From a virus, in IMG/VR virus record IMGVR_UViG_3300020154_000007, positions 1 to 45,267 of that record: DNA of 45,267 bases, one strand, 5' to 3'. Below are positions 4,315 through 45,267 of this stretch, piece by piece. Positions within the stretch are counted from its first letter, which is position 1. Each line of letters begins with the position of its first letter. The position numbers and the translations under genes were made by a program. The notes beneath the pieces are model-generated. The model did not search any database. It was not told the origin of the DNA and saw only the letters and a list, made by a program, of their open reading frames with translations.

Positions 4315-4334
4315 CATTACGCGTCGTTACAAAC

Positions 4335-4370
4335 TCCCGTGGCCGCCCTGAGCGACCACGGGATTTTTTT
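4335..4370 (+). terminator. Rho-independent terminator after the HTH regulator
   Basis: An 8-bp stem TCCCGTGG (4335-4342) / CCACGGGA (4356-4363) is followed immediately by seven T residues. This is the cleanest intrinsic terminator in the window. It insulates the regulator gene from the early operon that starts at 4429. Confidence 0.9.
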
Positions 4371-4380
4371 CGTCCGCAAG

Positions 4381-5023: not shown

Positions 5024-5245
5024 ATGGGACTCATCGGATACGAATACATGCGCGGACAGGTGGATCTCGCCTGTCTTGACGCCATGAGCGGCGACCACGA
5101 GGACTATCGCCTCTGCTTGGCGTTCGGCGTGCCGTGCGTCTCGGCTGCCATTCATCAGATGTTCGAAGCGAACGGTGCGGCCGCGTGGGAAGGCCGCGAG
5201 CGAGAGACGAGAGACGAGCGCTATGCGCGTTGGGGGATCGCATGA
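5024..5245 (+). CDS. Hypothetical early protein, 73 residues
   Basis: Start chosen at 5024 because GAGGAGGGG lies just upstream, one of the strongest ribosome-binding sites in the window. The sequence (MGLIGYEYMRGQVDLACLDA) has no recognised motif. Its stop overlaps the next start in an ATGA arrangement, so the two are likely translated together. Confidence 0.65.
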   Translation: MGLIGYEYMRGQVDLACLDAMSGDHEDYRLCLAFGVPCVSAAIHQMFEANGAAAWEGRERETRDERYARWGIA

Positions 5246-5484
5246 GCAAGCGCAACCTAGAGCGCGTCTCGGTTGAGATCGGTGGCCTGAAGCTTGGGCT
5301 ACGGGTCGAGCCGGAGGTGATGCTCAAGCTGATCAGCGCAATGCAGGAGTACTACGTGGCGAACCGGATCGGCAGCCCAACCGGCAAGGCGCTGATCGCG
5401 TGCGACGAAGCTTTCGACAAGCTCGTCGACAACATTCGCGAGTCCGCGCAGCAGCACGCGCTCAAGGTCATCAGCAAGAGCTGA
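5242..5484 (+). CDS. Hypothetical early protein, 80 residues
   Basis: Begins at the ATG overlapping the previous TGA. The protein starts MSKRNLERVSVEIGGLKLGL and has a helical C-terminal half (FDKLVDNIRESAQQHALK). No family recognised. Its stop codon is the first element of the intercistronic stem-loop that follows, so termination here may feel or affect that structure. Confidence 0.65.
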   Translation: MSKRNLERVSVEIGGLKLGLRVEPEVMLKLISAMQEYYVANRIGSPTGKALIACDEAFDKLVDNIRESAQQHALKVISKS

Positions 5485-5535
5485 GCGCTGGCGCTAGGCC
5501 GCTGACGGCGGCACTGCGCGAGCGCTCAAGCTCGA
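5482..5535 (+). ncRNA. Stop-codon-linked intercistronic stem-loop, copy 1
   Basis: The element starts on the TGA stop of the upstream gene. Outer stem TGAGCGCT (5482-5489) pairs with AGCGCTCA (5521-5528). An inner 4-bp stem GCGC/GCGC and a hairpin GCCGC-TGACG-GCGGC lie inside. The 3' part (GAGCGCTCAAGCTCGA) can instead fold as CGAGC-loop-GCTCG. Copies 2 (5827-5889) and 3 (42594-42537, minus strand) keep this architecture with compensating base changes. Role unknown; a cis-acting RNA controlling processing, stability or reinitiation is inferred. Confidence 0.6.
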
Positions 5536-5547
5536 TGGAGACACACC

Positions 5548-5829
5548 ATGGACGAGATCGATATCAGCAAGATGGATAAGGCCGATGTGCTGGTAGCGCT
5601 GTATGGCCGCGCCCGAGCGCAGGGGATGGGCATGTTCCACTACACGCCAGAGCCGCTCACGCGCGAGGAAGCAACCGAACTGCTCGAAGAGTCCAAGTAC
5701 TTCGACTACCTGCGCGGCCGCGTGATGAAGGTCAATCTGGCCAGCGACCAGCTGCGAACGGGTCTCTACGACCGTGACAACGGGAAAGGTGCAGCAGAGG
5801 AAGCGCTGCGCGAGGCCGGGCTGCTCTGA
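5548..5829 (+). CDS. Conserved phage-type hypothetical protein, 93 residues
   Basis: Acidic protein containing YFDYLRGRVMKVNL followed by LYDRDNGKGAAEEAL. I recognise this pattern from small conserved phage and prophage proteins of unknown function. It sits between two copies of the intercistronic RNA element and overlaps the start of the second with its stop codon. The leader from the first copy supplies TGGAGA as a modest ribosome-binding site. Confidence 0.75.
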   Translation: MDEIDISKMDKADVLVALYGRARAQGMGMFHYTPEPLTREEATELLEESKYFDYLRGRVMKVNLASDQLRTGLYDRDNGKGAAEEALREAGLL

Positions 5830-5889
5830 GCGTTGGCACTGATGCGCCGCAGCTGCAAGCGGCGCCGACGTGCGAGCGCTCAAGCTCGA
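5827..5889 (+). ncRNA. Stop-codon-linked intercistronic stem-loop, copy 2
   Basis: Starts on the TGA stop of the upstream gene. Outer stem TGAGCGTT (5827-5834) pairs with AGCGCTCA (5875-5882), with one G-T wobble. The inner stem is GCAC/GTGC and the hairpin is GCGCCGC-AGCTGCAA-GCGGCGC. Inner-stem and hairpin sequences differ from copies 1 and 3 while pairing is kept. The element leads straight into the CAACCAACCAGGA motif and the start of the lipoprotein gene at 5917. Confidence 0.65.
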
Positions 5890-5908
5890 ACCAACCAACC
5901 AACCAGGA
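5889..5908 (+). promoter_or_regulatory. Extended CAACCAACCAGGA leader motif
   Basis: A CCAA repeat (four AACC units) runs into CCAGGAAAA, 9 bases before the ATG at 5917. It is the plus-strand match of the leader before 44249, which also ends AACCAACCAGGAAAA. AGGA is the ribosome-binding core; the repeated AACC is unusual and shared across the genome. Confidence 0.7.
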
Positions 5909-5916
5909 AAAGACAC

Positions 5917-6513
5917 ATGGAAACGATCAACATGAAGCAGGCACGTAGCATCTACCGCCGAGACCACGGACGGTACGGCTCGTTCCGCGAGTTCGCGCGG
6001 GAGTTCATCGGCGGAGCGTTCCTCGGCAAGCTCGCCGAGCAAACGCCGGTCGGAAAGCTGGCACGAATCATCAGCGCCGCCGCGGTGGTGTTCATGGTGG
6101 CGTGCGCGCCTGTCGACCAGCCGCTCGGCGAAGAGGCCGGCCCGCAAGCCGGCCCGCAAGCCGGCAGCGCTGCTGTTGAAGCAAAGTCAGAAGCGCTGCT
6201 GGCGGCTTCACCTTGTTACACAGCGCAAATCAACGCCATCAAGGCGAAGATGGAAGGTCCGCTGTACTACTGCGCGTCAAGTCAATGGACCTTCGATGGC
6301 TGGAACCTGCGTAACGGCGACTGCAGCTTGACCTCGGCCTATGGCGTATGGATTCCAGCAGCGCGGGGCAACGGCGCCTCTACATGTTCCTTCAGCGTCA
6401 GACGCTTAGACGATGATGGTAACCCTTCGGGCTATTGCGCTTGGAAGCTGGGCACCGTGAACGCTTCAGGCTCAAGCGTCACGATCACTAACGACGTCAA
6501 CAGCTGCTGGTGA
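5917..6513 (+). CDS. Putative secreted lipoprotein or membrane-anchored protein
   Basis: 198 residues from the ATG at 5917, chosen because of the leader motif upstream; an in-frame ATG at 5833 would read through that element. A hydrophobic stretch at about 50-65 ends FMVAC, a plausible lipobox. It is preceded by an unusually long, charged N-terminus of about 45 residues. After Cys come a low-complexity linker with a repeated GPQA unit and a Cys-rich Trp/Tyr-containing domain (YYCASSQWTFDGW). It looks like a surface protein inserted among early genes, possibly expressed in lysogens or for superinfection exclusion. That role is inference. Confidence 0.6.
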   Translation: METINMKQARSIYRRDHGRYGSFREFAREFIGGAFLGKLAEQTPVGKLARIISAAAVVFMVACAPVDQPLGEEAGPQAGPQAGSAAVEAKSEALLAASPCYTAQINAIKAKMEGPLYYCASSQWTFDGWNLRNGDCSLTSAYGVWIPAARGNGASTCSFSVRRLDDDGNPSGYCAWKLGTVNASGSSVTITNDVNSCW

Positions 6514-6564
6514 ACGCTGCCCCGTGGCCGACAGCTCGCGCTGAAGGCCACGGGCAAGCGAATC
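6511..6564 (+). ncRNA. Intercistronic hairpin on a stop codon (variant)
   Basis: Starts on the TGA of the lipoprotein gene. Perfect stem CCCGTGGCC (6521-6529) / GGCCACGGG (6546-6554), extended by CGCT/AGCG outside a small internal loop. No T-run follows, so it is not a standard terminator. It resembles the three homologous elements in position and first bases (TGAACGCTG) but lacks their GAGCGCTCAA segment. Confidence 0.5.
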
Positions 6565-6580
6565 ACACAGGGAGGAACCA

Positions 6581-6787
6581 ATGGACTCTGACGAACATCA
6601 GCGCTGGCTTCATTGTAGGTGCGACGCGTGCAAGCGCTTGGACGAGGTCGCGCACTTGCCGCTGTACTGGAATGAACTGTTCGAGGCCACTAAGCACGAG
6701 TGCCCGAACTACTCCGCCTCGTTTCACGAGGTTCCCGCCGCCGCGCCCGACGAGAGGCAGATCGATCTGTTCGAGGTGAAGCCGTGA
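6581..6787 (+). CDS. Small Cys-rich hypothetical protein, 68 residues
   Basis: Start at 6581 with a strong GGGAGGA ribosome-binding site 7 bases upstream. The N-terminus has HCRCDACKRLDEVAH with a further Cys in HECPNY, a likely zinc-binding arrangement. No known family. Its stop overlaps the GTG start of the next gene. It is one of many Cys-pair miniproteins encoded by this phage. Confidence 0.65.
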   Translation: MDSDEHQRWLHCRCDACKRLDEVAHLPLYWNELFEATKHECPNYSASFHEVPAAAPDERQIDLFEVKP

Positions 6788-7032
6788 GCGGCTTCAAGAC
6801 GCGCAGCGTTGGCGATGTGCCTGCGCCGACCATCAACATGAAGGATGCAATCGAAGGAGCCATCCCGGTCCTGCGAAAGGCAGTGATCGAAGGCGAGAAG
6901 CTTGGACGCGACGCCGAGCGCGCAGCGGTCGTGAAGTACCTGCGGCTTCTCGCCAAGTCGTTCGACAACGGCGGGCACAGCGCATTGCTGCAAGCCGCGT
7001 TTGACCTCGAACATGGGGCGCACGTCAAATGA
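6784..7032 (+). CDS. Hypothetical protein, 82 residues, upstream of the exonuclease
   Basis: GTG start at 6784 overlapping the previous TGA (GTGA). Largely helical (AIPVLRKAVIEGEKLGRDAER) with no recognised motif. Its stop overlaps the exonuclease ATG, placing it in the recombination cluster. It may be an accessory factor, but the sequence does not show this. Confidence 0.6.
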   Translation: MSGFKTRSVGDVPAPTINMKDAIEGAIPVLRKAVIEGEKLGRDAERAAVVKYLRLLAKSFDNGGHSALLQAAFDLEHGAHVK

Positions 7033-8015
7033 CCATCGAAGTCGACAGCGAAGGATTCATGACGGGCATCGGATCGGAGACGCCGTCGCAGTACCACACC
7101 GATCCGTGCAAGCACCCGAGCCTCAGCGCGCACACAGCAATGCGTCTGCTGCGCTGCCCCGAGGATGTGATGCGCACGCACCCGAAGCTCGGCGGCTCGC
7201 GCCATCAGCGCGAGTACACGGACTCCATGGACAACGGGAACCTGATCGACGCACTGCTCACGGGCGCGAAGTACGTGCCGAGCGCGAAGCAGTCGCACGC
7301 AGCGCTGGGCAAAAACGGCAAGGAACTAGGCTCGGTCGAGTACGAGACGTTCGGCGATCTCGTGATCGTGGACGCGGACGCGTGGCAGTCGAACAGCGCG
7401 AAAGAGATCCGCGAGCTCGCGCGCGACCAGAACAAGACGCCGATCCTGCGAGCAGACTTCGTGTCGCAGTACGGCAAGGTGCCCGAGTATCTCGCGCGCT
7501 TGGAGCTTGCCGGCGTGACGCTCGAAGGCGTGCAGACGCAGGTCCCGATCTATTGGGTGGAGGAGTCGAGCACGGGGCAGCGCGTGCAGTGCCGCGGGCT
7601 GCTCGACATCGTCGACGACATGGAGTGCCCGGAAACCGGCGAGGATTGCGGCGTCGCGATCACCGACCTCAAGACGGCGGCGGACATCAGCGACAAGGGC
7701 ATCGCGCGCTCGATCTTTCAATACAACTACCACGTGCAGGGCGCGGTCTATCAGCGCGGGTACCACAAGGCGACGGACGTCGTCGCGCGCGTGCGCCTCG
7801 CGTTCCTTCGCACGTCGCTACCAGCTGCACGCGCTGATTGGCTGGGCGAGACCTGGCTGCAGTTCGGCGCGTTGCTGTGGGAGCGCGCCGTCGACATCTG
7901 GGCCGAGTGCCTGAGCACCGGCTACTGGCCCGGCCACGAGCTGCGCTCGGAAAGCATCGTGCCCGAGCCCTACATGCTCCAAGACATGAAACGCCAGCTG
8001 GGGATCGAAGAATGA
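7029..8015 (+). CDS. RecE-like PD-(D/E)XK exonuclease
   Basis: 328 residues. The nuclease core is visible as GLLDIVDD (D193) and ITDLKTA (D213-x-K215). It is followed by YNYHVQGAVYQRG, the Q/Y helix of the RecB/RecE/YqaJ-type fold and close to the DUF3799 exonuclease-VIII group. Such enzymes resect double-stranded DNA 5'-3' to expose 3' single strands for annealing. It overlaps an ATPase of Sak4 type downstream by 4 bases, forming a phage recombination pair. ATG at 7029 overlaps the previous TGA. Confidence 0.85.
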   Translation: MTIEVDSEGFMTGIGSETPSQYHTDPCKHPSLSAHTAMRLLRCPEDVMRTHPKLGGSRHQREYTDSMDNGNLIDALLTGAKYVPSAKQSHAALGKNGKELGSVEYETFGDLVIVDADAWQSNSAKEIRELARDQNKTPILRADFVSQYGKVPEYLARLELAGVTLEGVQTQVPIYWVEESSTGQRVQCRGLLDIVDDMECPETGEDCGVAITDLKTAADISDKGIARSIFQYNYHVQGAVYQRGYHKATDVVARVRLAFLRTSLPAARADWLGETWLQFGALLWERAVDIWAECLSTGYWPGHELRSESIVPEPYMLQDMKRQLGIEE

Positions 8016-9464: not shown

Positions 9465-9916
9465 GCAGGGCCGCGCAGATCGAGCCGTGGGCCACGCTGG
9501 ATGACGTCGAGCGCGTAACGGGGTTCGCGCGGACGAAGTGCACCGAAATCATCAAGCATCACCTTGGCGGCTTCAAGCCGTCAGGGTCGAAGGCGTGGCG
9601 GTGTACGTGGCGGGCGCTTCGTGAGTACAAGAAGGCCCAGGAGCAGGGGATCCCATGGCAAAGCACCGACTTCCAGTCCACTCACGACCAAGCAAAGGCG
9701 GCAGATACTGGATCTGCTACGTCCGCACGCCGGACGGACGCAGACTGCAGCGAGCGCTCCACATCCGAGACGACGGGAGCAAGGAATCAGAACGAGCAGC
9801 AATCGCCGCCTACTGGCAAGAGCAGAGCCGCGTCACTGCTGGAACAGAGACTCGACGCAGCAAAACGCGCACGCTCCGGAGCGCCCTCAAGGCGCTCGCC
9901 GAAGCCAAGGAAGTAG
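9461..9916 (+). CDS. Excisionase-like HTH protein overlapping the integrase gene
   Basis: 151 residues, GTG start overlapping the previous TGA. The first 70 residues look like an excisionase/MerR-type winged helix (LDDVERVTGFARTKCTEIIKHH, then SKAWRCTWRALREY). The remaining 80 residues are Ser/Thr/Ala/Arg-rich and low complexity, and overlap the integrase gene by 262 bases in another frame. Lambda xis and int also overlap, but far less. The tail may be unconstrained, with the integrase frame dominant there. A role in directing excision is inferred from fold and position. Confidence 0.6.
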   Translation: MSRAAQIEPWATLDDVERVTGFARTKCTEIIKHHLGGFKPSGSKAWRCTWRALREYKKAQEQGIPWQSTDFQSTHDQAKAADTGSATSARRTDADCSERSTSETTGARNQNEQQSPPTGKSRAASLLEQRLDAAKRARSGAPSRRSPKPRK

Positions 9917-20835: not shown

Positions 20836-23216
20836 TATAGACCCAGGTACCCGAGTAGGCCGACTTGCGAAAAGCTGCTGTCGAACTCTTGCTGATCCTT
20901 CTGACGTGCGCGTGCGGCGGCCTCAGCGTCTCTTGCGCGGCGATCCTCTTGATTGCTTTCGAACTCCGCGCCGCGAGCGCCGATCACGTCTGCGTCGATG
21001 TCGCGCTGTAGACGCGCCGTGCCGAGTCCGAACTCAGCGTTCGCGCGCCGATCCGCAGACGCGTCGCGCATCGCTTCGTTATCGCGACCCGTAACCCGAT
21101 CGACTCCTTCGACGTAGTCACGGTTCATCTGCGCTCCGGTGCGCGTGGTCTCTGCGTCGCGGCCCCATTGAGCCTCAGACGATCGCAGCCCCGCATCGGT
21201 TGCGATGCCCGTGCGCCGATCCTCGCCCTCTGACTGTCGGAACTGCGCGTCAGACATGTCAGTGCCGCGACCCCAGGCGCTGTTTTGCTCTGACTGCCTG
21301 AAGGTGTCCTGGAAGCGCGACTGGATGCCCTGCTGCTCGCTGTTGAACATGTTGATCGCGTCGTCGGCCGAGCGCAGCGCGTTCGCTTGGGTCGCCATGC
21401 CTTCGGTACCGCGCAGGCGCGCGTCACGATTGCCCATGCGCATCGCGTCGTCTGACGCGCGCATGCTGTTGACCATCGAGCCCTGGCCTTCGAGGCCCGC
21501 AAGCTGCCGATTCGCGTTGCTGTTGAGCATCGCGTCGTCTGCGTTGCGCATGTTCGTTGCCATGGCGCCCTGGGCGCGCGTGCCCTCGAACTCCAGCTGC
21601 GAGTTGTGCTGCCGCATCGCGTCATCACTCGCGCGCATGCTGTTGGCCATCATGCCAGCGCCCTGCAAGCCCTGCATTTGCTGCTGGCTATTGAACTGAC
21701 GCATCTGGTCGTCTTGCGAGCGCATCGTGTTGGCCTGATTGGCCTGACCCTGCACGCCTGCGAAGCGCTGCTGGTTGTTGCTGATCGCCATGCGATCGGC
21801 CGCGCTCTTCGTGTTGAAGTCGCGTTCGAACGACTGGTCAGCAATCGTGCTCGACATGTTGCCGTAGTTGACGAGCGCTTTCTCTGCGCGATCGACTGCT
21901 TTGGCGTTTGCGCCGAGGTCCTGCAGCGCGCGCGTGTTTGAAGCTTCCGCGCTCGACGCATTCAGATTCGACAGAGCCATCGTAGAGCCGCCCATACCGC
22001 GGCGCTCAAGCTCTCGATAGTTCGCGTCTCGCACTGACCGTTGCGACTGCTCTTGTGCAAGCCGGCTCTGCATGTACAGGAACCGTTCCGCATCGGTGAG
22101 CTTGGGGTCCATGCGGTCGCGGAACTCGCCGAGCGCCTCTTTTTGAGCCGCCAGTGCTTCAGCGTCCGCCGTTGCAGTCGCCGCTTGCGAGTCGAGATCC
22201 ATCGCACCACTCGCAAACTGCCCGTAGTCGTCATAAGCACCTTGCTGCATGCCCACGAGGCCAGCATCAGAGCTGACGTCGCGCGCGCCTGATGCGAAGT
22301 CTCCGAAGCCGGAGTAAACGTCCCGCTGCTGACCTACGAGCCCGGCGTCGCTGCTGATGTTGCGCGCGCCCGAGGCGAAGCCGCCCAAGTCGTTGTAGTT
22401 GTCCATCTGCATCCCAACAAACTGTTGGTTGCTGTGGACGTCGTTTGCTCCACTCGCCCAGCCGCCGAAGGCGTTGGCCACACCTTGCTGCTGACCGACA
22501 AGCCCCGCGTCGGAGCTGATGTCGTTCGCGCCGCTCGACCAGTTCGCGAAGTCACCGTACGCGGCCTCCTGCATGCCGACGTAGCGCTGATTGCTCTGCA
22601 CAGTCGGGTCGAAGCTGGTTGGCGTCAGCTGACGCATGCTGTTGTTCAGCGCGCCCAGCTGGGAGACGTTCGCGGCGTCGCGTGCGCTCGACTGCGCGAA
22701 GCTGCTGTTCATGTTCCCCAGCGTCTGCTGGTCCTGTGCGGTCGATCGCGCCGCCGAGCCTTGCAGGCCCTGGAACAGCCCAGCGTTGGCTTGCGTTGCG
22801 CTGTTGAACGCTGACCCGAGATTCTGCGTGTTGGTCGTGCGCCGCGCTGCATCGCTCGCCGCGCCTTCGCGCAGGGATTGGCTGTACGGGTCAAGCGCAG
22901 CCATCGCGTTGTTGCCCGACGTCTGACGAGCGTCGGCGACGTCTTGAAACGAATCGAAGCGCCGGCCGGACGCGCGCTCCAGCGCGTCCGCTGCGAAAGC
23001 CTCTTGGGCTGCCGCGCCCGTCGCGCCAGGCATGATCGGCTCGCCCATGTAGTCGGTCGCGCCCGAGTAGATATCGCCGAGGATCTGATTGCGTCGTCCG
23101 TAGAGCGCATCCTGCTCGGCTCGCCGCGCCTGTTCCGCGGCTTGCGCGTCAAGGAAGTCCGGCGTGCTTTGCCCGTTGAGCGCTGCCCACCAGTCGAGTT
23201 GGTCCTGTTCAGGCAT
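20835..23216 (-). CDS. Internal virion protein with two blocks of tandem repeats
   Basis: 793 residues. Block A (about 212-345) has five units of exactly 27 residues sharing VG-Q, FASGA and SSDAGL. Block B (about 480-630) has five units of exactly 29 residues sharing MRASDDAMR and NSQQQ-like segments. The rest is Gln/Ala/Asp-rich and helical. Such composition and position, just downstream of tail-tube genes, fit a DNA ejection protein. The regular repeat lengths suggest a rod or fibrous helical assembly. Unit number may vary between strains. Confidence 0.65.
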   Translation of the reverse strand: MPEQDQLDWWAALNGQSTPDFLDAQAAEQARRAEQDALYGRRNQILGDIYSGATDYMGEPIMPGATGAAAQEAFAADALERASGRRFDSFQDVADARQTSGNNAMAALDPYSQSLREGAASDAARRTTNTQNLGSAFNSATQANAGLFQGLQGSAARSTAQDQQTLGNMNSSFAQSSARDAANVSQLGALNNSMRQLTPTSFDPTVQSNQRYVGMQEAAYGDFANWSSGANDISSDAGLVGQQQGVANAFGGWASGANDVHSNQQFVGMQMDNYNDLGGFASGARNISSDAGLVGQQRDVYSGFGDFASGARDVSSDAGLVGMQQGAYDDYGQFASGAMDLDSQAATATADAEALAAQKEALGEFRDRMDPKLTDAERFLYMQSRLAQEQSQRSVRDANYRELERRGMGGSTMALSNLNASSAEASNTRALQDLGANAKAVDRAEKALVNYGNMSSTIADQSFERDFNTKSAADRMAISNNQQRFAGVQGQANQANTMRSQDDQMRQFNSQQQMQGLQGAGMMANSMRASDDAMRQHNSQLEFEGTRAQGAMATNMRNADDAMLNSNANRQLAGLEGQGSMVNSMRASDDAMRMGNRDARLRGTEGMATQANALRSADDAINMFNSEQQGIQSRFQDTFRQSEQNSAWGRGTDMSDAQFRQSEGEDRRTGIATDAGLRSSEAQWGRDAETTRTGAQMNRDYVEGVDRVTGRDNEAMRDASADRRANAEFGLGTARLQRDIDADVIGARGAEFESNQEDRRARDAEAAARARQKDQQEFDSSFSQVGLLGYLGL

Positions 23217-23889
23217 TTGCGATCCCGTAGTAGATGAACGTGTAACGAAGCACCGTCGGGTCTCCGATCGTCATGCCGTCGATCGAGCGGAGAAGCATGC
23301 GCGCGCCGTAAGGGACCGCATCGCAGCCAACACCGGAGCGGAAGTAGCGGGTGATGTCTGACGGCGCGATGATGCGACCGGCAATGACCGCTGCCGGCGT
23401 GAAGTTCGGCGGAAGCGGGATGAGCATCGGCTCGGTGTAGGGAGCTTCGAACTCGCCGATCACGAGCTCGCCGCGCGCGAACGTGCCGGGGCCGACTCCT
23501 CCACCCGTTGCGGGTCCGGTGCCAGTGCCGTCGCCGATGCCCGTTCCGCCCGTGCCGCGCGCCGCGTTCGGCTGCCGCCCGCCGCTGTGCCCGACAGGCC
23601 CACGAGGAGGCGCGAACGCGTCTGCGACCTCGCGACCGAGCGTGCCGACAGAGCGCGCAAGGAGCTCCATCGGGTTGTAGGCGCCGCCGCCCATCGACCC
23701 AAGCGGGGCGAGGTTCAGCGGTCGGCCATAGTTCGAGGGCATGCCCATCGGTCGACCGAAGCCGCCGAGCTGCGGCAACACGCGCGGCTGCATCTGCTGC
23801 ACAGCCGACTGCACCGCCAGCGCGGCCTTACGCACACGCCCCGGCCGGTCGCCGACTTGGATCAAAGCGCGCTTTGCACACGTGCTCAT
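23209..23889 (-). CDS. Putative tail or virion structural protein, 226 residues
   Basis: Start at the ATG at 23889, overlapping the upstream stop by 4 bases; longer upstream starts would run inside the preceding gene. The middle is Gly/Pro-rich and unstructured (GTGGTGIGDGTGTGPATGGG), while the C-terminal 80 residues look like a beta-domain (GELVIGEFEAPYTEP). It sits between the stabilisation-like protein and the repeat protein. No family named. Confidence 0.6.
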   Translation of the reverse strand: MSTCAKRALIQVGDRPGRVRKAALAVQSAVQQMQPRVLPQLGGFGRPMGMPSNYGRPLNLAPLGSMGGGAYNPMELLARSVGTLGREVADAFAPPRGPVGHSGGRQPNAARGTGGTGIGDGTGTGPATGGGVGPGTFARGELVIGEFEAPYTEPMLIPLPPNFTPAAVIAGRIIAPSDITRYFRSGVGCDAVPYGARMLLRSIDGMTIGDPTVLRYTFIYYGIANA

Positions 23890-26267
23890 GCTGCAGCTCC
23901 TCGCTTGTTGTGCGTCGTCTGCGTGCTGTGGTTGTTCGTGATCGCGCAGCCGAAGAACGTGTACTTGGTCGGCCCCTCGGGCGTGACGTAGCCGAGGCTG
24001 ATCGTGTTGCTGACTGCCGGCGCATCGGTCGGCACTTCCATCCAGCACATGGACAGTGAGAAGTCGGCCGCTGCGCCTTGCGCCACCGTGCTGATGCCCG
24101 CTTGAATCGCGCTCGGGACGTTGCCGCCCTCGTGCTTCTCAAGCGTGCGCTCCATGCCTTCCATCTCGTTACAGATGAACGTGACGGGTGCGCCGACAGC
24201 GCTCGCGTGGAAGTACCACTCCACCTCGATCCAGCGCTTCAGCGAGGACGGATCGCCGTCACTCGTCGGCTGCATGCGCACGATGCTCGTCTGATAGGTG
24301 TCTGCGCTCGCGCGCTTCACCTCGAGCACGCCGTCCACGAGCTCGGCCACGATGATCGGATACTGGAGGTTCGCGAAGCTGCTCGCGACCTCGTCTTCGG
24401 CGATGCGGACGCGCGACCACTTGTTCCAACGCGTGCTGTAGACGTACGCGTACGGGTCGCCGTCGAAACAGAAGTACACATCGCCGCTCGACTCGTCTGG
24501 GATGACGCGAGTCTTGTCATCCTGAGACCACTGCGCGCGGCCGGTGTCGCCGAGCGCCGCCGTGGAGATCTCACGCACCATTCCGCCCGCGTCGATCACG
24601 ACAGCGCCGTTGTTGCTCGCGCAGAAGACGTTGTCGCCGAGCCGGCAATAAGCCTTCGGCCCGCGCAGCAGGCACTGCGTATCGATCTGGTCCATGCCCC
24701 AATCGAAGCCAGCGCTCGAGCTTCCGCCTGTGCCGGTGAGCCGGTGAATGCCAAACTCGGTCCAGATCACCATGGCCTGCGACGTGGCGCATGCGGCGTA
24801 GACTTGTCCCTTGCCGACGAGACCAGCTGCGACGACAGCCTCGGGCTGGCCGTTCTCGGTCCACATCATGCCGTTCTTGCGGCGCGGGCGTGAGACGAGC
24901 TCTGCATCCTCCGAGAGCAACGGAAGCGGCGGGTTGTAGTTCTGCCCGTTGCTCGCGCGGATCGTGAAGTCTCCGAAGCCGGCGTAGTCGAAGCGGAAGG
25001 CGAAGCCGGTCGCGGGCTGCGTCCACTCGCCTGGTGTGTCGGGGTTCACGCGCGCGAGGTCGTCAACGTTGACGATCGTGGTGCTCGCGAGGTCGTCTGC
25101 CTGCCCGAGCTCGAACGTGTCGCCGTTTATCTCGACTTCGTCGGCGACCTCATCACGTGTTCCGATGCCCCAGGTGTCCGACCAGTCGTCGGTGAGCTGG
25201 CCCATGCCGCCAGCTGCGCGCGCGACGCGCGCGGGGGGCTCGGTGATGTCGAAATAGAAGGTGTACCCGCGATACTCCTCGATGACTCGCGCGATAGGCG
25301 GCGGGCGCTTCTGCGCGCTCGCACCCACAACACCTTGATTCGTGTAGAGAGCTTCACCGAGGGAAAGATCGCCGGTTGCTTCAGTCCACGTCCACGAGCT
25401 ACCGCCGCCCTCCGGAATCGTGAAGATGGAGGACATGTAGTAATCAGCCGTCGTAGACGTGCCTTGATCGTAATCCTCCGGCGTGTCGCCAGGAGCAGGC
25501 CGCGGGGTCTGATAGGTCCGGTAGACCTCGACCATGTCGCCGGGGAGCAGCTGCGGGTGTCCGGGGCGCTGGTAGACAGTGATCGAAAGGTTGCGGCGAT
25601 CAGCTTCTGCGTCTTCTTCTGCGTCGCCTTCGGCGAACGTCTGCACGGCTGCGCTTGGCGCCCCGGAGACCTCGTAGCAGTCTGGAAAGTGCCTTGTCAC
25701 CACTGCAACGGTGTGAGCTTGCTTCCCAGCGTGCAGCGCGCCCGCGCCTGTGCCGCTGATAGCTTCAGTGCTGATCGCCGGTGAGAACATGCCCGCGAGC
25801 CGCGGGACAAACTCATGGGCAAGGACCGGATCGAGGTAGTCGAACACCATCGGTCCGGTAGTCGTCGTTACAAACACGCGATCACGTGTGATCACCCAGT
25901 TGATGCGGCCGTCGATCTCGAACACGGCGCCATCGGGCGCGTACGCGTGCACAGCCTTTGTCCATGCGCTGATGCCGTGGTCAGTGTTGCGCAACCAGCG
26001 GTAGCCCCACTCGCCCGCCTTCTTGATCAAGAGCAGCGTCCACTTCGTTGGGAGCGGGATGATCTCCACAGCTTCGTAGTCGTCGTCGTCGCTGACGCTG
26101 GTGAACGTCGTGAACTTGGGCGCTGTCTCGTGCGAGCCGGCTGCGTTGTGCAGCACGCCGATGTCGACAAGCATCGCGCCAGGGCTGTACTGACCGAGCT
26201 TGTTCGGCGCAGTGATCAGCCCTTGCGGCTCGACGATGATCGGCTTCGACTTGGGCACTACGTCCAC
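23886..26267 (-). CDS. Tail tube / tail stabilisation-like protein (podovirus type)
   Basis: 793 residues, GTG start. The beta-rich sequence starts with a PQGLITAPNKLGQYSPGAM-type segment and contains AVVIDAGGMVREI and GDPYAYVYSTRWNKWSRV. This is the style of large podovirus tail-hub proteins such as P22 gp10-like stabilisation proteins or T7 tail tube B. It directly follows the head-to-tail adaptor gene, overlapping it by 10 bases. The placement supports a role in closing the connector and forming the short tail tube. Confidence 0.65.
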   Translation of the reverse strand: MDVVPKSKPIIVEPQGLITAPNKLGQYSPGAMLVDIGVLHNAAGSHETAPKFTTFTSVSDDDDYEAVEIIPLPTKWTLLLIKKAGEWGYRWLRNTDHGISAWTKAVHAYAPDGAVFEIDGRINWVITRDRVFVTTTTGPMVFDYLDPVLAHEFVPRLAGMFSPAISTEAISGTGAGALHAGKQAHTVAVVTRHFPDCYEVSGAPSAAVQTFAEGDAEEDAEADRRNLSITVYQRPGHPQLLPGDMVEVYRTYQTPRPAPGDTPEDYDQGTSTTADYYMSSIFTIPEGGGSSWTWTEATGDLSLGEALYTNQGVVGASAQKRPPPIARVIEEYRGYTFYFDITEPPARVARAAGGMGQLTDDWSDTWGIGTRDEVADEVEINGDTFELGQADDLASTTIVNVDDLARVNPDTPGEWTQPATGFAFRFDYAGFGDFTIRASNGQNYNPPLPLLSEDAELVSRPRRKNGMMWTENGQPEAVVAAGLVGKGQVYAACATSQAMVIWTEFGIHRLTGTGGSSSAGFDWGMDQIDTQCLLRGPKAYCRLGDNVFCASNNGAVVIDAGGMVREISTAALGDTGRAQWSQDDKTRVIPDESSGDVYFCFDGDPYAYVYSTRWNKWSRVRIAEDEVASSFANLQYPIIVAELVDGVLEVKRASADTYQTSIVRMQPTSDGDPSSLKRWIEVEWYFHASAVGAPVTFICNEMEGMERTLEKHEGGNVPSAIQAGISTVAQGAAADFSLSMCWMEVPTDAPAVSNTISLGYVTPEGPTKYTFFGCAITNNHSTQTTHNKRGAAA

Positions 26268-28315: not shown

Positions 28316-29595
28316 CAGGCAGCGTCCAGCGAATCGCCTGGTGAGACGATGTTCTCGACGAAGAAGTTGTGCCAGTTCTGTTCGCAGAACGGCGCTTGGT
28401 TCGAGTACATCACCGACTGACAGCCCGACTTGTCGATCAGCGGCGTGAGGAAGCCCTCGTTCAATCCCTTGATCGGACGCATCGTGTTGTCGGTCGTGCC
28501 GACGCGGTAGGCGTTCGCGGTGTTGGCGAAGTACATCGCCTGGCCCTGCTTCGCCATGTCCCACACAACCACGTCGATGTTGCCGGCCGGAGTCTCGAAG
28601 ATCAGGCGAGACTCGCCCTGCTTCTTCACGCCGCCCGAAGACGGGTCGCGGTTCTTGGCCGAGTACTCGTCGGCGAGCGCTGCGAACGCGGAGCCCGAGC
28701 ACATGATCTGCCCGCCGCTCTTGCTGCCGTTGTCTGCGATCAGCGCGCCCCACTCACGGATGAGCTTCAGCGTCAGCGGGCCGTTGGCCGCGTCGAACAC
28801 CGGAGTGCGGAACTGCGTGATCTCGCCGACGTCGACACCGAACAGCGTGCCGGTCTGCGTCTTCATGATCGCTTCCATGCCGATGCAGCTGTTTTGTCGC
28901 CAGCCCTTCGGCACGATCACGTCGTTCGCCTGCGGGGTAACGGCGGAGCCCGCTTTGTACAAGCGCACGTGCGTCTTGCGCTGAGTCGGCACGCCGAGCA
29001 CCTGCACGTCGCCGACGCGCAGCGTGGTGCCGTCTGACTGGTAGATGTCGATGAGCGCGTTGCGCATCGAGGGCCAGAGACCGCGGATGTAGCTCGCGCG
29101 CGTGAGGCGCACGTCGCGCGCGGTGGACAGTGCGCCGGCAGCCGTGGTGCTGATCACACCCCAGTTGCTCGCGAGCACCGAGCCGCCGCCCGGACCGTAT
29201 GCAAGCGCGCCGTCGCGATACAGCGAAGCGCCTTTGCCCTTCGCCTTCATCTTCAACGACATGATGTCGTTGTAAGAAGTGTCGCTTCCGTTGAGCGACG
29301 CGTACACGTCATCCCACGCGTACTGCGCGCGCATCATGATCGTGGAGCCGTCGAGCTCAGCGCGCTGCAACTCCGCGCCGATCGCAGCATTCAGATCGAA
29401 CAGGCCGCCTTGGCGCGAAGCCGTTTGGCCGTGCTCGAGGCCAGCCATAAAGCTGACTTGGTACTTCTCGCCGATCTTGGCTTTCTGCGTGAACGGCAGA
29501 AGCTCGGCGAGGGTGTTGATCTCTGGCAGGGCATCGAAGAACCCGCCGTACTTGGTCTTATAGTTCGCCAGCAGCGCCGGCGTGATCGCACTCAT
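28315..29595 (-). CDS. Major capsid (coat) protein
   Basis: 426 residues, the right size and place for a coat protein: after portal, scaffold and a small head gene. The N-terminus has an extended region (PALLANYKTKYGGFFDALPEI) followed by a mixed alpha/beta core. Segments such as GQIMCSGSAFAALADEYS and NIDVVVWDMAKQGQAMYFANT look like HK97-fold A-domain strands. It is preceded by an unusually long leader (about 225 bases) with a strong stem-loop, consistent with special control of the most abundant product. Confidence 0.8.
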   Translation of the reverse strand: MSAITPALLANYKTKYGGFFDALPEINTLAELLPFTQKAKIGEKYQVSFMAGLEHGQTASRQGGLFDLNAAIGAELQRAELDGSTIMMRAQYAWDDVYASLNGSDTSYNDIMSLKMKAKGKGASLYRDGALAYGPGGGSVLASNWGVISTTAAGALSTARDVRLTRASYIRGLWPSMRNALIDIYQSDGTTLRVGDVQVLGVPTQRKTHVRLYKAGSAVTPQANDVIVPKGWRQNSCIGMEAIMKTQTGTLFGVDVGEITQFRTPVFDAANGPLTLKLIREWGALIADNGSKSGGQIMCSGSAFAALADEYSAKNRDPSSGGVKKQGESRLIFETPAGNIDVVVWDMAKQGQAMYFANTANAYRVGTTDNTMRPIKGLNEGFLTPLIDKSGCQSVMYSNQAPFCEQNWHNFFVENIVSPGDSLDAA

Positions 29596-29822
29596 GTTGA
29601 GGCACCCAAAAGGAACGAGGTTTGGCGCTCGCTACTGGGTGGCTCTTGCTAGTCCGCTACTGGTTGCCGCCTACACGCAGGGTTGCCCGTGGGTCCTGTG
29701 CTCGTGTGATGCTGGTCTTTTGCGGTCGCTAGCTCGATGCTCGTTGGCTTGCATCGTTAGCGTTGAATCTCGGCCCGAGTGAGTCAACGCGGGCCGAGAT
29801 TTTTGGTTATTCAGTTTTTCGG
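29596..29822 (-). promoter_or_regulatory. Long leader of the coat gene with a 12-bp stem-loop
   Basis: This is the longest gap in the structural operon. A perfect stem AATCTCGGCCCG (29766-29777) / CGGGCCGAGATT (29790-29801) with a 12-base loop lies near its upstream end. A T-run follows it on the plus strand, so as an intrinsic terminator it would act on rightward (antisense) transcripts. On the coding strand it may tune mRNA ends or stability. I see no convincing promoter. Confidence 0.55.
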
Positions 29823-30107
29823 TTACGCTTCGTCCAGCTCGTAAGTCGCTTCGAACTCGTCCTTCGGGATCACGTCTGCGTGCTTGGGGATGACCGGAGG
29901 TCCGTCCACCTGCGCGACGAACACGACGTAGTCACCGACGACTGCGTCTTTCCAGCCGGTGAGGGTGCCGACCTTGTAGGTCTGCCCGGTCGTGATCTCA
30001 TCGATCGTGCCGTCAGCGATCAGAGTCGTGTACCAGGTCGGGGGCGAGCTTGCGCCCAGGGGATGCGCTTCCACTTCGAGGTCTGCGGTTCGGTTGTACG
30101 TGGCCAT
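29823..30107 (-). CDS. Small head protein, 94 residues, possible decoration protein
   Basis: Acidic, beta-rich protein (EVEAHPLGASSPPTWYTTLIADGTIDEI; TGWKDAVVGDYVVFV) between scaffold and coat genes. Phages often encode a capsid decoration or stabilising protein at this place. It ends shortly before the coat leader stem-loop. The decoration role is inferred from size and order. Confidence 0.55.
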   Translation of the reverse strand: MATYNRTADLEVEAHPLGASSPPTWYTTLIADGTIDEITTGQTYKVGTLTGWKDAVVGDYVVFVAQVDGPPVIPKHADVIPKDEFEATYELDEA

Positions 30108-42438: not shown

Positions 42439-42509
42439 GGGACAGCTCCCGCGTAGAACGCGCACACGAGCGCGCACGCCGCCATCAGCGGCAACATGTA
42501 TCTAGTCAT
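42435..42509 (-). CDS. Membrane micropeptide, 24 residues
   Basis: ATG at 42509 follows a CAACCAACCAGGAGA leader with good spacing. The peptide MTRYMLPLMAACALVCAFY is a single hydrophobic segment. Its stop overlaps the GTG of the next micropeptide. Small as it is, the leader, spacing and coupling make translation likely. Confidence 0.5.
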   Translation of the reverse strand: MTRYMLPLMAACALVCAFYAGAVP

Positions 42510-42516
42510 CTTCGTC

Positions 42517-42530
42517 TCCTGGTTGGTTGT
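42517..42530 (-). promoter_or_regulatory. CAACCAACCAGGA leader motif after RNA element copy 3
   Basis: Minus-strand leader 7-8 bases before the ATG at 42509. It lies directly downstream of the third intercistronic stem-loop, repeating the element-motif-ATG order seen at 5827-5917. Confidence 0.65.
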
Positions 42531-42536
42531 ACTGCT

Positions 42537-42594
42537 TCGAGCGTTGAGCGCTCGCAGACGGGGCCTCTTGCGAGGCCCTCACTGCCAATGCTCA
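42537..42594 (-). ncRNA. Stop-codon-linked intercistronic stem-loop, copy 3
   Basis: Starts on the TGA of the 30-residue membrane peptide gene. Outer stem TGAGCATT pairs with AGCGCTCA (one mismatch, one wobble). The inner stem is GCAG/CTGC. The hairpin GGGCCTC-GCAA-GAGGCCC is closed by a GNRA tetraloop. The 3' segment CGAGCG-CTCAA-CGCTCG can form an alternative hairpin. Same layout as copies 1 and 2, in the opposite operon. Confidence 0.65.
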
Positions 42595-44419: not shown

Positions 44420-45006
44420 TCGGACGAACGCGGCGCGCAGTGCAGAATGAGACGTACTCCGTAAAGCCTCGGGTTGCTCTCGCACTTCTGCTGCCGGTAA
44501 CTCCATCTGACCCCTCGCTGTTTCAGAATGTCGTCTGCACGTCCGATCTGCCTGATGTTCTCGTCGCACTCGTGGCCCCATACGAGGAACGCACACAGCG
44601 CGTCGCGTACGGCTTTGAACGCGGCGACGAGGTTGTCGTCGTCGAGCGCTCGCTGGCCGATGCGCACGAACTCTATGTGCGTGACTCGCAGGCTGATGCC
44701 TTCCGGTATGCAGCGAGCGAACGTCGGCATGTGCGTATGCATCACGCGCCAGACAAGCTCGCGCTTCTCTTTGACCCAGCGAGCGCGCAGCTGCGCCGGT
44801 GTACGTCCTGCGTTGTACTCCGCGGTGCGGAATGCGATCGGCAGCTGCAGCGTGTGCGTGCTCTTGGCGGGGTCGAACTTATGGAACTGCCCGACGTACG
44901 CTTTGACCGGCTGCTTGCGCTTCAGCTTCGGCAGGTCCTGTTTATTGAGCACGCGCCGATAGTCAGCCGCGTTCTCGCGCGGGATCGCGTTGAGGATGCG
45001 AGTCAT
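44416..45006 (-). CDS. rusA: RusA-like Holliday junction resolvase, copy 2 (complete)
   Basis: 196 residues from the ATG at 45006, overlapping the upstream stop (ATGA). The acidic motif LDDDNLVAAFKAVRDAL (121-137) with downstream DD residues is the RusA endonuclease signature. It is clearly homologous to the partial copy at 1-625, with near-identical first 20 residues but much divergence later, including a shorter region around 60-80. On a circular genome these would be two alleles of one locus or a true tandem duplication. Confidence 0.85.
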   Translation of the reverse strand: MTRILNAIPRENAADYRRVLNKQDLPKLKRKQPVKAYVGQFHKFDPAKSTHTLQLPIAFRTAEYNAGRTPAQLRARWVKEKRELVWRVMHTHMPTFARCIPEGISLRVTHIEFVRIGQRALDDDNLVAAFKAVRDALCAFLVWGHECDENIRQIGRADDILKQRGVRWSYRQQKCESNPRLYGVRLILHCAPRSSE

Positions 45007-45267
45007 CCCGCGAGCCCCCGCTCCCTGATGAAGTCGCCGAGCGTGATGAGCGGCTGGCCGCACTGACACGGCAGCACGTCCCAGGTCTCAGCCCCGAGCG
45101 TCGTGCGCGCTACGAGCTGCTGCTGGCGCGGCTGATCGCAACGCTTGCAGTCCACCTGTCCGCACAGGCTCTCGACACGCGTGCTGATGTCGCCGATCTC
45201 GAGGTGCGGGGCGCGCAGCACGGTCGTGCGCACGATTGGGCGTAGCGTCTTGGGTCGCGCGTCGTGC
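45003..45267 (-). CDS. Small Cys-rich, zinc-ribbon-like protein, copy 2 (5' end off the contig)
   Basis: The reading frame is open to the right edge, and the visible 87 residues match the complete copy at 622-918 with only a few substitutions. The same Cys clusters (CGQVDCKRC, LPCQCG) are present. DNA identity to 622-886 is very high: four differences in about 280 bases, none in the last 126. This suggests recent common origin or an assembly overlap. Confidence 0.75.
   Translation of the reverse strand, partial: HDARPKTLRPIVRTTVLRAPHLEIGDISTRVESLCGQVDCKRCDQPRQQQLVARTTLGAETWDVLPCQCGQPLITLGDFIRERGLAG

Follow-up and report, generated by a model that had tools for sequence, protein, structure and literature searches.

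What is the sequence that opens on a stop codon, folds and ends just ahead of the next start codon at three places in one phage genome, and what might it do there? The genome, which we call the window, is the whole 45,267-base IMG/VR virus record IMGVR_UViG_3300020154_000007 (positions 1-45,267), and an earlier note on it had proposed that stem-loops at 5482-5535 (+), 5827-5889 (+) and 42594-42537 (-) are three copies of a candidate new cis-acting RNA. Genes were called with a home-made predictor.

A stop-codon-linked element in three copies

The three copies are real and lie exactly where they had been placed. The first (W1, 54 nt, 5482-5535, +) occupies the gap between ORFs 5242-5484 and 5548-5829; its 5' arm UGAGCGCU (5482-5489) opens with the three bases that terminate ORF 5242-5484, an inner stem with an apical hairpin is predicted by folding at 5491-5519 (GCGC at 5491-5494 pairing with GCGC at 5516-5519), and an invariant 3' arm AGCGCUCA at 5521-5528 is the partner of the 5' arm in what we call state A. 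In state B, an alternative 3' hairpin, CGAGC(GCUCAA)GCUCG plus a conserved A, takes up 5519-5535. The second copy (W2, 63 nt, 5827-5889, +) lies between ORFs 5548-5829 and 5917-6513, with the alternative 3' hairpin and conserved A at 5873-5889, and is followed at 5890-5916 by an unstructured leader, CAACCAACCAACCAGGA, with an SD before the ATG at 5917. The third (W3, 58 nt, 42537-42594, -) has a hydrophobic 30-48 aa ORF upstream (stop 42594-42592) and ORF 42509-42435 downstream; its alternative hairpin, CGAGCG(CUCAA)CGCUCG plus A at 42537-42554 (-), is longer through an extra C, and a CAACCAACCAGG leader with an SD at 42518-42529 (-) precedes the ATG at 42509.

In each window copy base 1 is the T of the TGA that closes the preceding ORF, as the note had said, and an SD with a start codon comes after the element. 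The common 3' end, GAGCGCTCAA plus GCTCGA, was likewise found in all three, the third reading GAGCGCTCAA(C)GCTCGA with one additional C, and the exact GAGCGCTCAA occurs at three sites in the window, all within the element copies. Two of the three lead into CAACCAACCAGG leaders, again as described. Compared with dinucleotide shuffles, the RNA folds give z = -4.5 (W1), -3.6 (W2) and -4.4 (W3), and the copies sit in opposing early operons, those at 5482 and 5827 on the plus strand and that at 42594 on the minus strand.

Two further features of these operons were observed. The terminal TGA of the next gene after W2 in the same operon also opens a strong hairpin (6511-6566, +; TGAACGCTG...CAAGCGAATCA, z about -5), which resembles a diverged relative of the element but is without the GCTCGA tail. 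The CAACCAACCAGG(A) leader stands ahead of many window start codons, with 11 matches at up to two mismatches against 1.7 expected (sites at 2401-, 5896+, 41636-, 42034-, 42529-, 42707- and 44270-), and may serve this phage as its own sequence for translation initiation or ribosome standby.

A family of 12 copies in eight phage records

Nine further copies were found, giving 12 in eight metagenomic phage records, and by gene content the carriers represent at least five unrelated lineages (the window with G2 and G306; G5; G6; G7; and G305). G2 has two copies, a scan for the 3' core only gave copies in three more phages plus a second copy in one of them, and a final scan with the full consensus gave three extra records. 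The consensus is 5'-UGARCNYU-[inner stem + apical hairpin]-CGAGCGCUCA-N(1-3)-GCUCGA-3', 51-70 nt in length (on the reverse strand, TCGAGCN{0,3}TGAGCGCTCGN{20,50}ARNGYTCA). Invariance of the 3' block is partly ascertained, since the block itself served to find most of the copies in records other than the window and G2; the window copies were not found in this way, and the final A of GCUCGA is kept in all 12, among them three copies whose search pattern did not require it.

In a covariance model of the outer and inner stems the 12 copies score 34-45 bits (W1 45.2, W2 43.5 and W3 38.8, W1 having helped to build the model) and the next match in 525 kb scores 17.7; as the model was built from the 12 copies their scores hold by construction, and it is the gap between them and the next match that is informative. 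When the carrier records were searched with relaxed settings, no half-diverged versions appeared. No Rfam model was matched by the element (E up to 5 around W1 and W2, 2 for the whole window and 0.5 for L093-L096), nor, in the window and L093-L096, any of the self-cleaving hammerhead, HDV, pistol, hatchet and twister-sister classes. BLAST against isolate phages and plasmids gave weak partial matches only. The bacterial search was effectively limited to 284 Myxococcota genomes, with two matches to the 3' core, about equal to the reversed control, and 398 Pseudomonadota genomes, with none to the full pattern; a larger bacterial-genome scan was uninformative, its pattern carrying GCGAGNNGCTCAA where the real copies have one base, and its matches were chance or coding matches. 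Several other pattern matches (e.g. L068, L101 and L106) are also chance, inside coding sequence.

A new cis-acting RNA family between phage genes is thus well supported, and the original proposal holds: the element has no Rfam match, nine more phage copies at the same kind of junction and a covarying inner stem. Few cis-acting RNA families are known as common to unrelated DNA phages, and this one is marked by an exact sequence tied to stop codons.

Neither the window terminase nor its presumed major capsid protein, so named from gene order, has a relative among GenBank phages. In IMG/VR we found a single close relative, G1 (terminase 78% identical), the more distant G2 (capsid-like protein 58%) and a third, G306, linked through common structural genes, whilst a search with the exonuclease gene gave zero relatives. 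The nearest relative, G1, is without the element, and its junction homologous to that of W3 reads TGAGATAACCA-GGGGCTTCGGCCCC-TAACCTAACTGGAG, a plain hairpin. G1 start codons have TAACCTAACTGGAG-like leaders. The window gene order is circularly permuted relative to G1, and a 300-bp duplicate of 94% identity lies near both record ends (533-832 and 44914-45213). Both genomes have a strong hairpin in the gap before the capsid-like gene (window 29593-29825, -; G1 9616-9836, -), of differing sequence (AATCTCGGCCCG... in the window, GTAGCGCCCTGGTG... in G1).

Conserved bases and two exclusive folds

The note had also held that both stems keep pairing whilst their bases change, and the two stems behaved differently. 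For the inner stem the claim stands, with nine double-change cells in the 12-copy alignment against 1.9 in shuffles, and the signal drops strongly when the inner-stem partner is slid; within the window copies, two-sided changes occur only in inner-stem pairs 3 (G-C/A-U) and 4 (C-G/G-C). Compensatory change in the outer stem was not borne out. Its 3' arm reads AGCGCTCA in each window copy and in 12/12 overall, whilst the 5' arm drifts, with a one-sided C-G to U-G change and an A.C mismatch in W3 among the window copies. Over the family, both G2 copies have A at position 4; at position 6 all four bases occur opposite an invariant C, with pairing in 5/12, and position 7 is a pyrimidine in every copy, facing G. 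The 3' hairpin CGAGC/GCUCG is invariant in all copies, so covariation neither supports nor refutes it; its stem is kept as the linker varies (A, C, G, T, AC or AAT) and the loop length shifts.

The outer stem of state A and the 3' hairpin of state B overlap, and each of the 12 copies can form either. In computed folds state A is preferred in 11/12 (G5 prefers B), and when bases 1-15 are withheld from pairing, in imitation of a ribosome standing on the UGA, every one of the 12 folds into state B (P = 0.80-1.00), whilst the SD is mostly unpaired in both. The suggestion of two exclusive states is supported by these folds, with the CGAGC/GCTCG alternative present in every copy. The other option raised, a pseudoknot of UGARC/GCUCA with CGAGC/GCUCG, scores well as pairs; we judge it unlikely as a full pseudoknot, its third loop having only 1-3 nt to span a 5-bp helix, which makes mutually exclusive folds the likelier arrangement.

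Junction position and Twister-P5 neighbours

All 12 copies are in sense orientation at gene junctions, just ahead of an SD and start. In 8/12 the stop codon coincides with element base 1, in the remainder it is no more than about a dozen bases away, and the next start codon is 13-28 nt beyond the element end. In G2, G6b, G305, G306 and G307 the element follows gene 1-3 of a run that opens at a divergent region. The flanking genes are small and unrelated from phage to phage, and hitchhiking with a gene cassette was dropped on this ground. No protein family common to all carriers was found, so any trans factor would be host-encoded or absent, and a phage-encoded partner was dropped as an explanation. 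An intrinsic terminator was rejected, no U tract lying 3' of any of the 12 copies, as was a boxA/nut site, whose U run is absent. Strong intrinsic terminators were observed elsewhere within the early gene runs of the window, at 4331-4371 (+) and about 41020 (-).

Two carriers hold Twister-P5 ribozymes (RF02684) in the next junctions. In G305 a gene precedes the element (66082-66141), after which come a second gene, a Twister-P5 (66424-66475, +; L123:6424-6475; 52.1 bits), a third gene and another Twister-P5 (67074-67129, +; L123:7074-7129; 50.2 bits). In G6 one gene separates the element (65288-65234) from a downstream Twister-P5 (64940-64886, -; L113:4886-4940; 39.0 bits). All three ribozymes are above the Rfam cut-off. 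Among 31 records tested, Twister-P5 above cut-off was confined to these three in 2/8 carriers, with 0/22 in unrelated non-carrier virus records (p about 0.06) and none in G1; none was found in 189 Myxococcota genomes under stricter filters. If a Twister could fall in any same-strand gap, its adjacency to the element has p about 0.001 overall, with chances per record of roughly 0.013 (G305) and 0.067 (G6), the G305 figure being approximate because its second Twister follows the last gene of the run, outside the counted gaps. The element shares with Twister-P5 a length of about 55 nt, a structured form and a place between the stop codon and next SD/start of phage genes, with Twister-P5 occupying the junctions directly downstream of it in G305 and G6. 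It is unlike Twister-P5 in sequence and fold, and no copy in the window or L093-L096 reached the RF02684 gathering score, though the true neighbours were found.

Processing between cistrons as the proposed explanation

From the computed family, its sequence constraint, junction position, inner-stem covariation, two folds and Twister neighbours, we infer a new cis-acting RNA that separates the cistrons of a polycistronic early mRNA, with a probability of about 0.42. The RNA would be cleaved at the gene junction and the neighbouring cistrons parted, either by the element itself, as a new small ribozyme class, or by a conserved host nuclease at a structured cut site; both are favoured in view of the Twister-P5 ribozymes at the junctions that follow the element in two carriers. 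Upstream translation may choose the fold. Message processing of this kind is the most economical account of an element that acts at the RNA level, on the sense strand, bound to junctions, with no common phage partner and with Twister neighbours in the same slots. Its more specific form, a new class of small self-cleaving ribozyme that stands next to or replaces Twister-P5 in unrelated phages and whose fold is gated by the ribosome at the stop codon, we consider rather unlikely.

Known small ribozymes have conserved core bases that are unpaired, and against the cleavage reading the conserved bases of the element are mostly in arms able to pair. Also against it, Twister neighbours occur in just 2/8 carriers, and G1 has a plain hairpin in place of the element at the homologous junction. 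Intercistronic RNase III sites of T7 and lambda are similar hairpins between early genes, adjoining stop codons and start regions; the element differs in the fixed 3' arm sequence common to unrelated phages, a feature not known from the RNase III sites. Phage genes and other ribozymes tend to have self-cleaving ribozymes close by, and pistol, hatchet and twister-sister were discovered through such neighbourhoods (PMC4604425, PMC10085705). The element is likewise a small phage-associated RNA in such a neighbourhood, and differs from these classes in having no Rfam match and conserved bases mainly in pairable arms; it is a candidate ribozyme. The reason phages keep such ribozymes between genes is called unknown in the literature (PMC10085705), and the element bears on this question; it offers a short list of RNAs open to cleavage testing in one experiment. 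Should it prove to be something other than a ribozyme, the element would remain a compact signal found widely at junctions, necessarily read by a host factor or by the RNA itself.

Alternative explanations

The main rival to cleavage is a translation-controlled switch, in which an idle upstream gene would leave the RNA in state A whilst a ribosome ending on the UGA would give state B near the standby site/SD, tuning downstream translation or reinitiation. The preference for state A in 11/12, the shift to state B under the 15-nt mask in all 12, the stop codon at or near base 1 and a 3' hairpin stem kept across linkers of 1-3 nt all fit this. However, the SD is mostly unpaired in either state, pairing alone leaves the fixed bases of the 3' arm and 3' hairpin, which show no compensatory change, unexplained, and UGA pairing in other gaps is not above shuffles (12 observed against 9.7 expected), a figure on which we also rejected the idea that these genomes commonly hide UGA within hairpins. 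A ribosome-gated switch thus fits the two folds and not the fixed sequence, and we hold it as a doubtful explanation.

An element acting in DNA, either a protein-binding site (the palindrome GAGCGCTC, ideal-lac-operator-like or stoperator-like) or a boundary for inter-phage recombination, would account for the fixed 3' block, the recurring GAGC/GCTC half-sites and copies scattered over non-homologous gene junctions. GAGCGCTCA is the core of the ideal lac operator. The spacing of the half-sites differs by 0-2 nt (GCTCA to GCTCG 1-3 nt) and is not fixed as in a DNA operator, the inner stem covaries as paired RNA, every copy is in sense orientation, there is no promoter room between stop and SD, and the carriers have no phage regulator in common. 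The DNA-level explanation therefore covers the fixed sequence but not spacing, orientation or covariation, and is improbable, although GAGCGCTCA recurs in papers on LacI operators (PMC3922697).

Processive antitermination of the HK022 put kind, in which nascent RNA binds RNA polymerase and early terminators are read through, is very improbable: put is a cis-acting phage RNA of two stem-loops that needs no phage protein and lies in both early operons (PMC9378689), and the element matches it in the early-operon position of the window copies, the two adjacent hairpins of state B and the five records with the element after gene 1-3 of a run from a divergent promoter region, but it sits at single junctions with stop-codon overlap, intrinsic terminators lie downstream in the same gene run for 1/12 copies (W3) and just one or two genes follow several copies (G5, G6a, G305).

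Cleavage or processing between cistrons is the reading we favour, and two observations on carrier genes are added. Related proteins occur in three carriers (G006 23104-24552, G007 47040-48380 and G306 5776-7458; none found in the others), that of G006 matching PHROG 850, an RNA-binding protein. The gene after element G6a (G006 64970-65212; L082 downstream ORF) codes for a peptide whose leader resembles those of class I lanthipeptides (NF038153, scoring slightly under the cut-off), so that this phage contig may carry a RiPP precursor.
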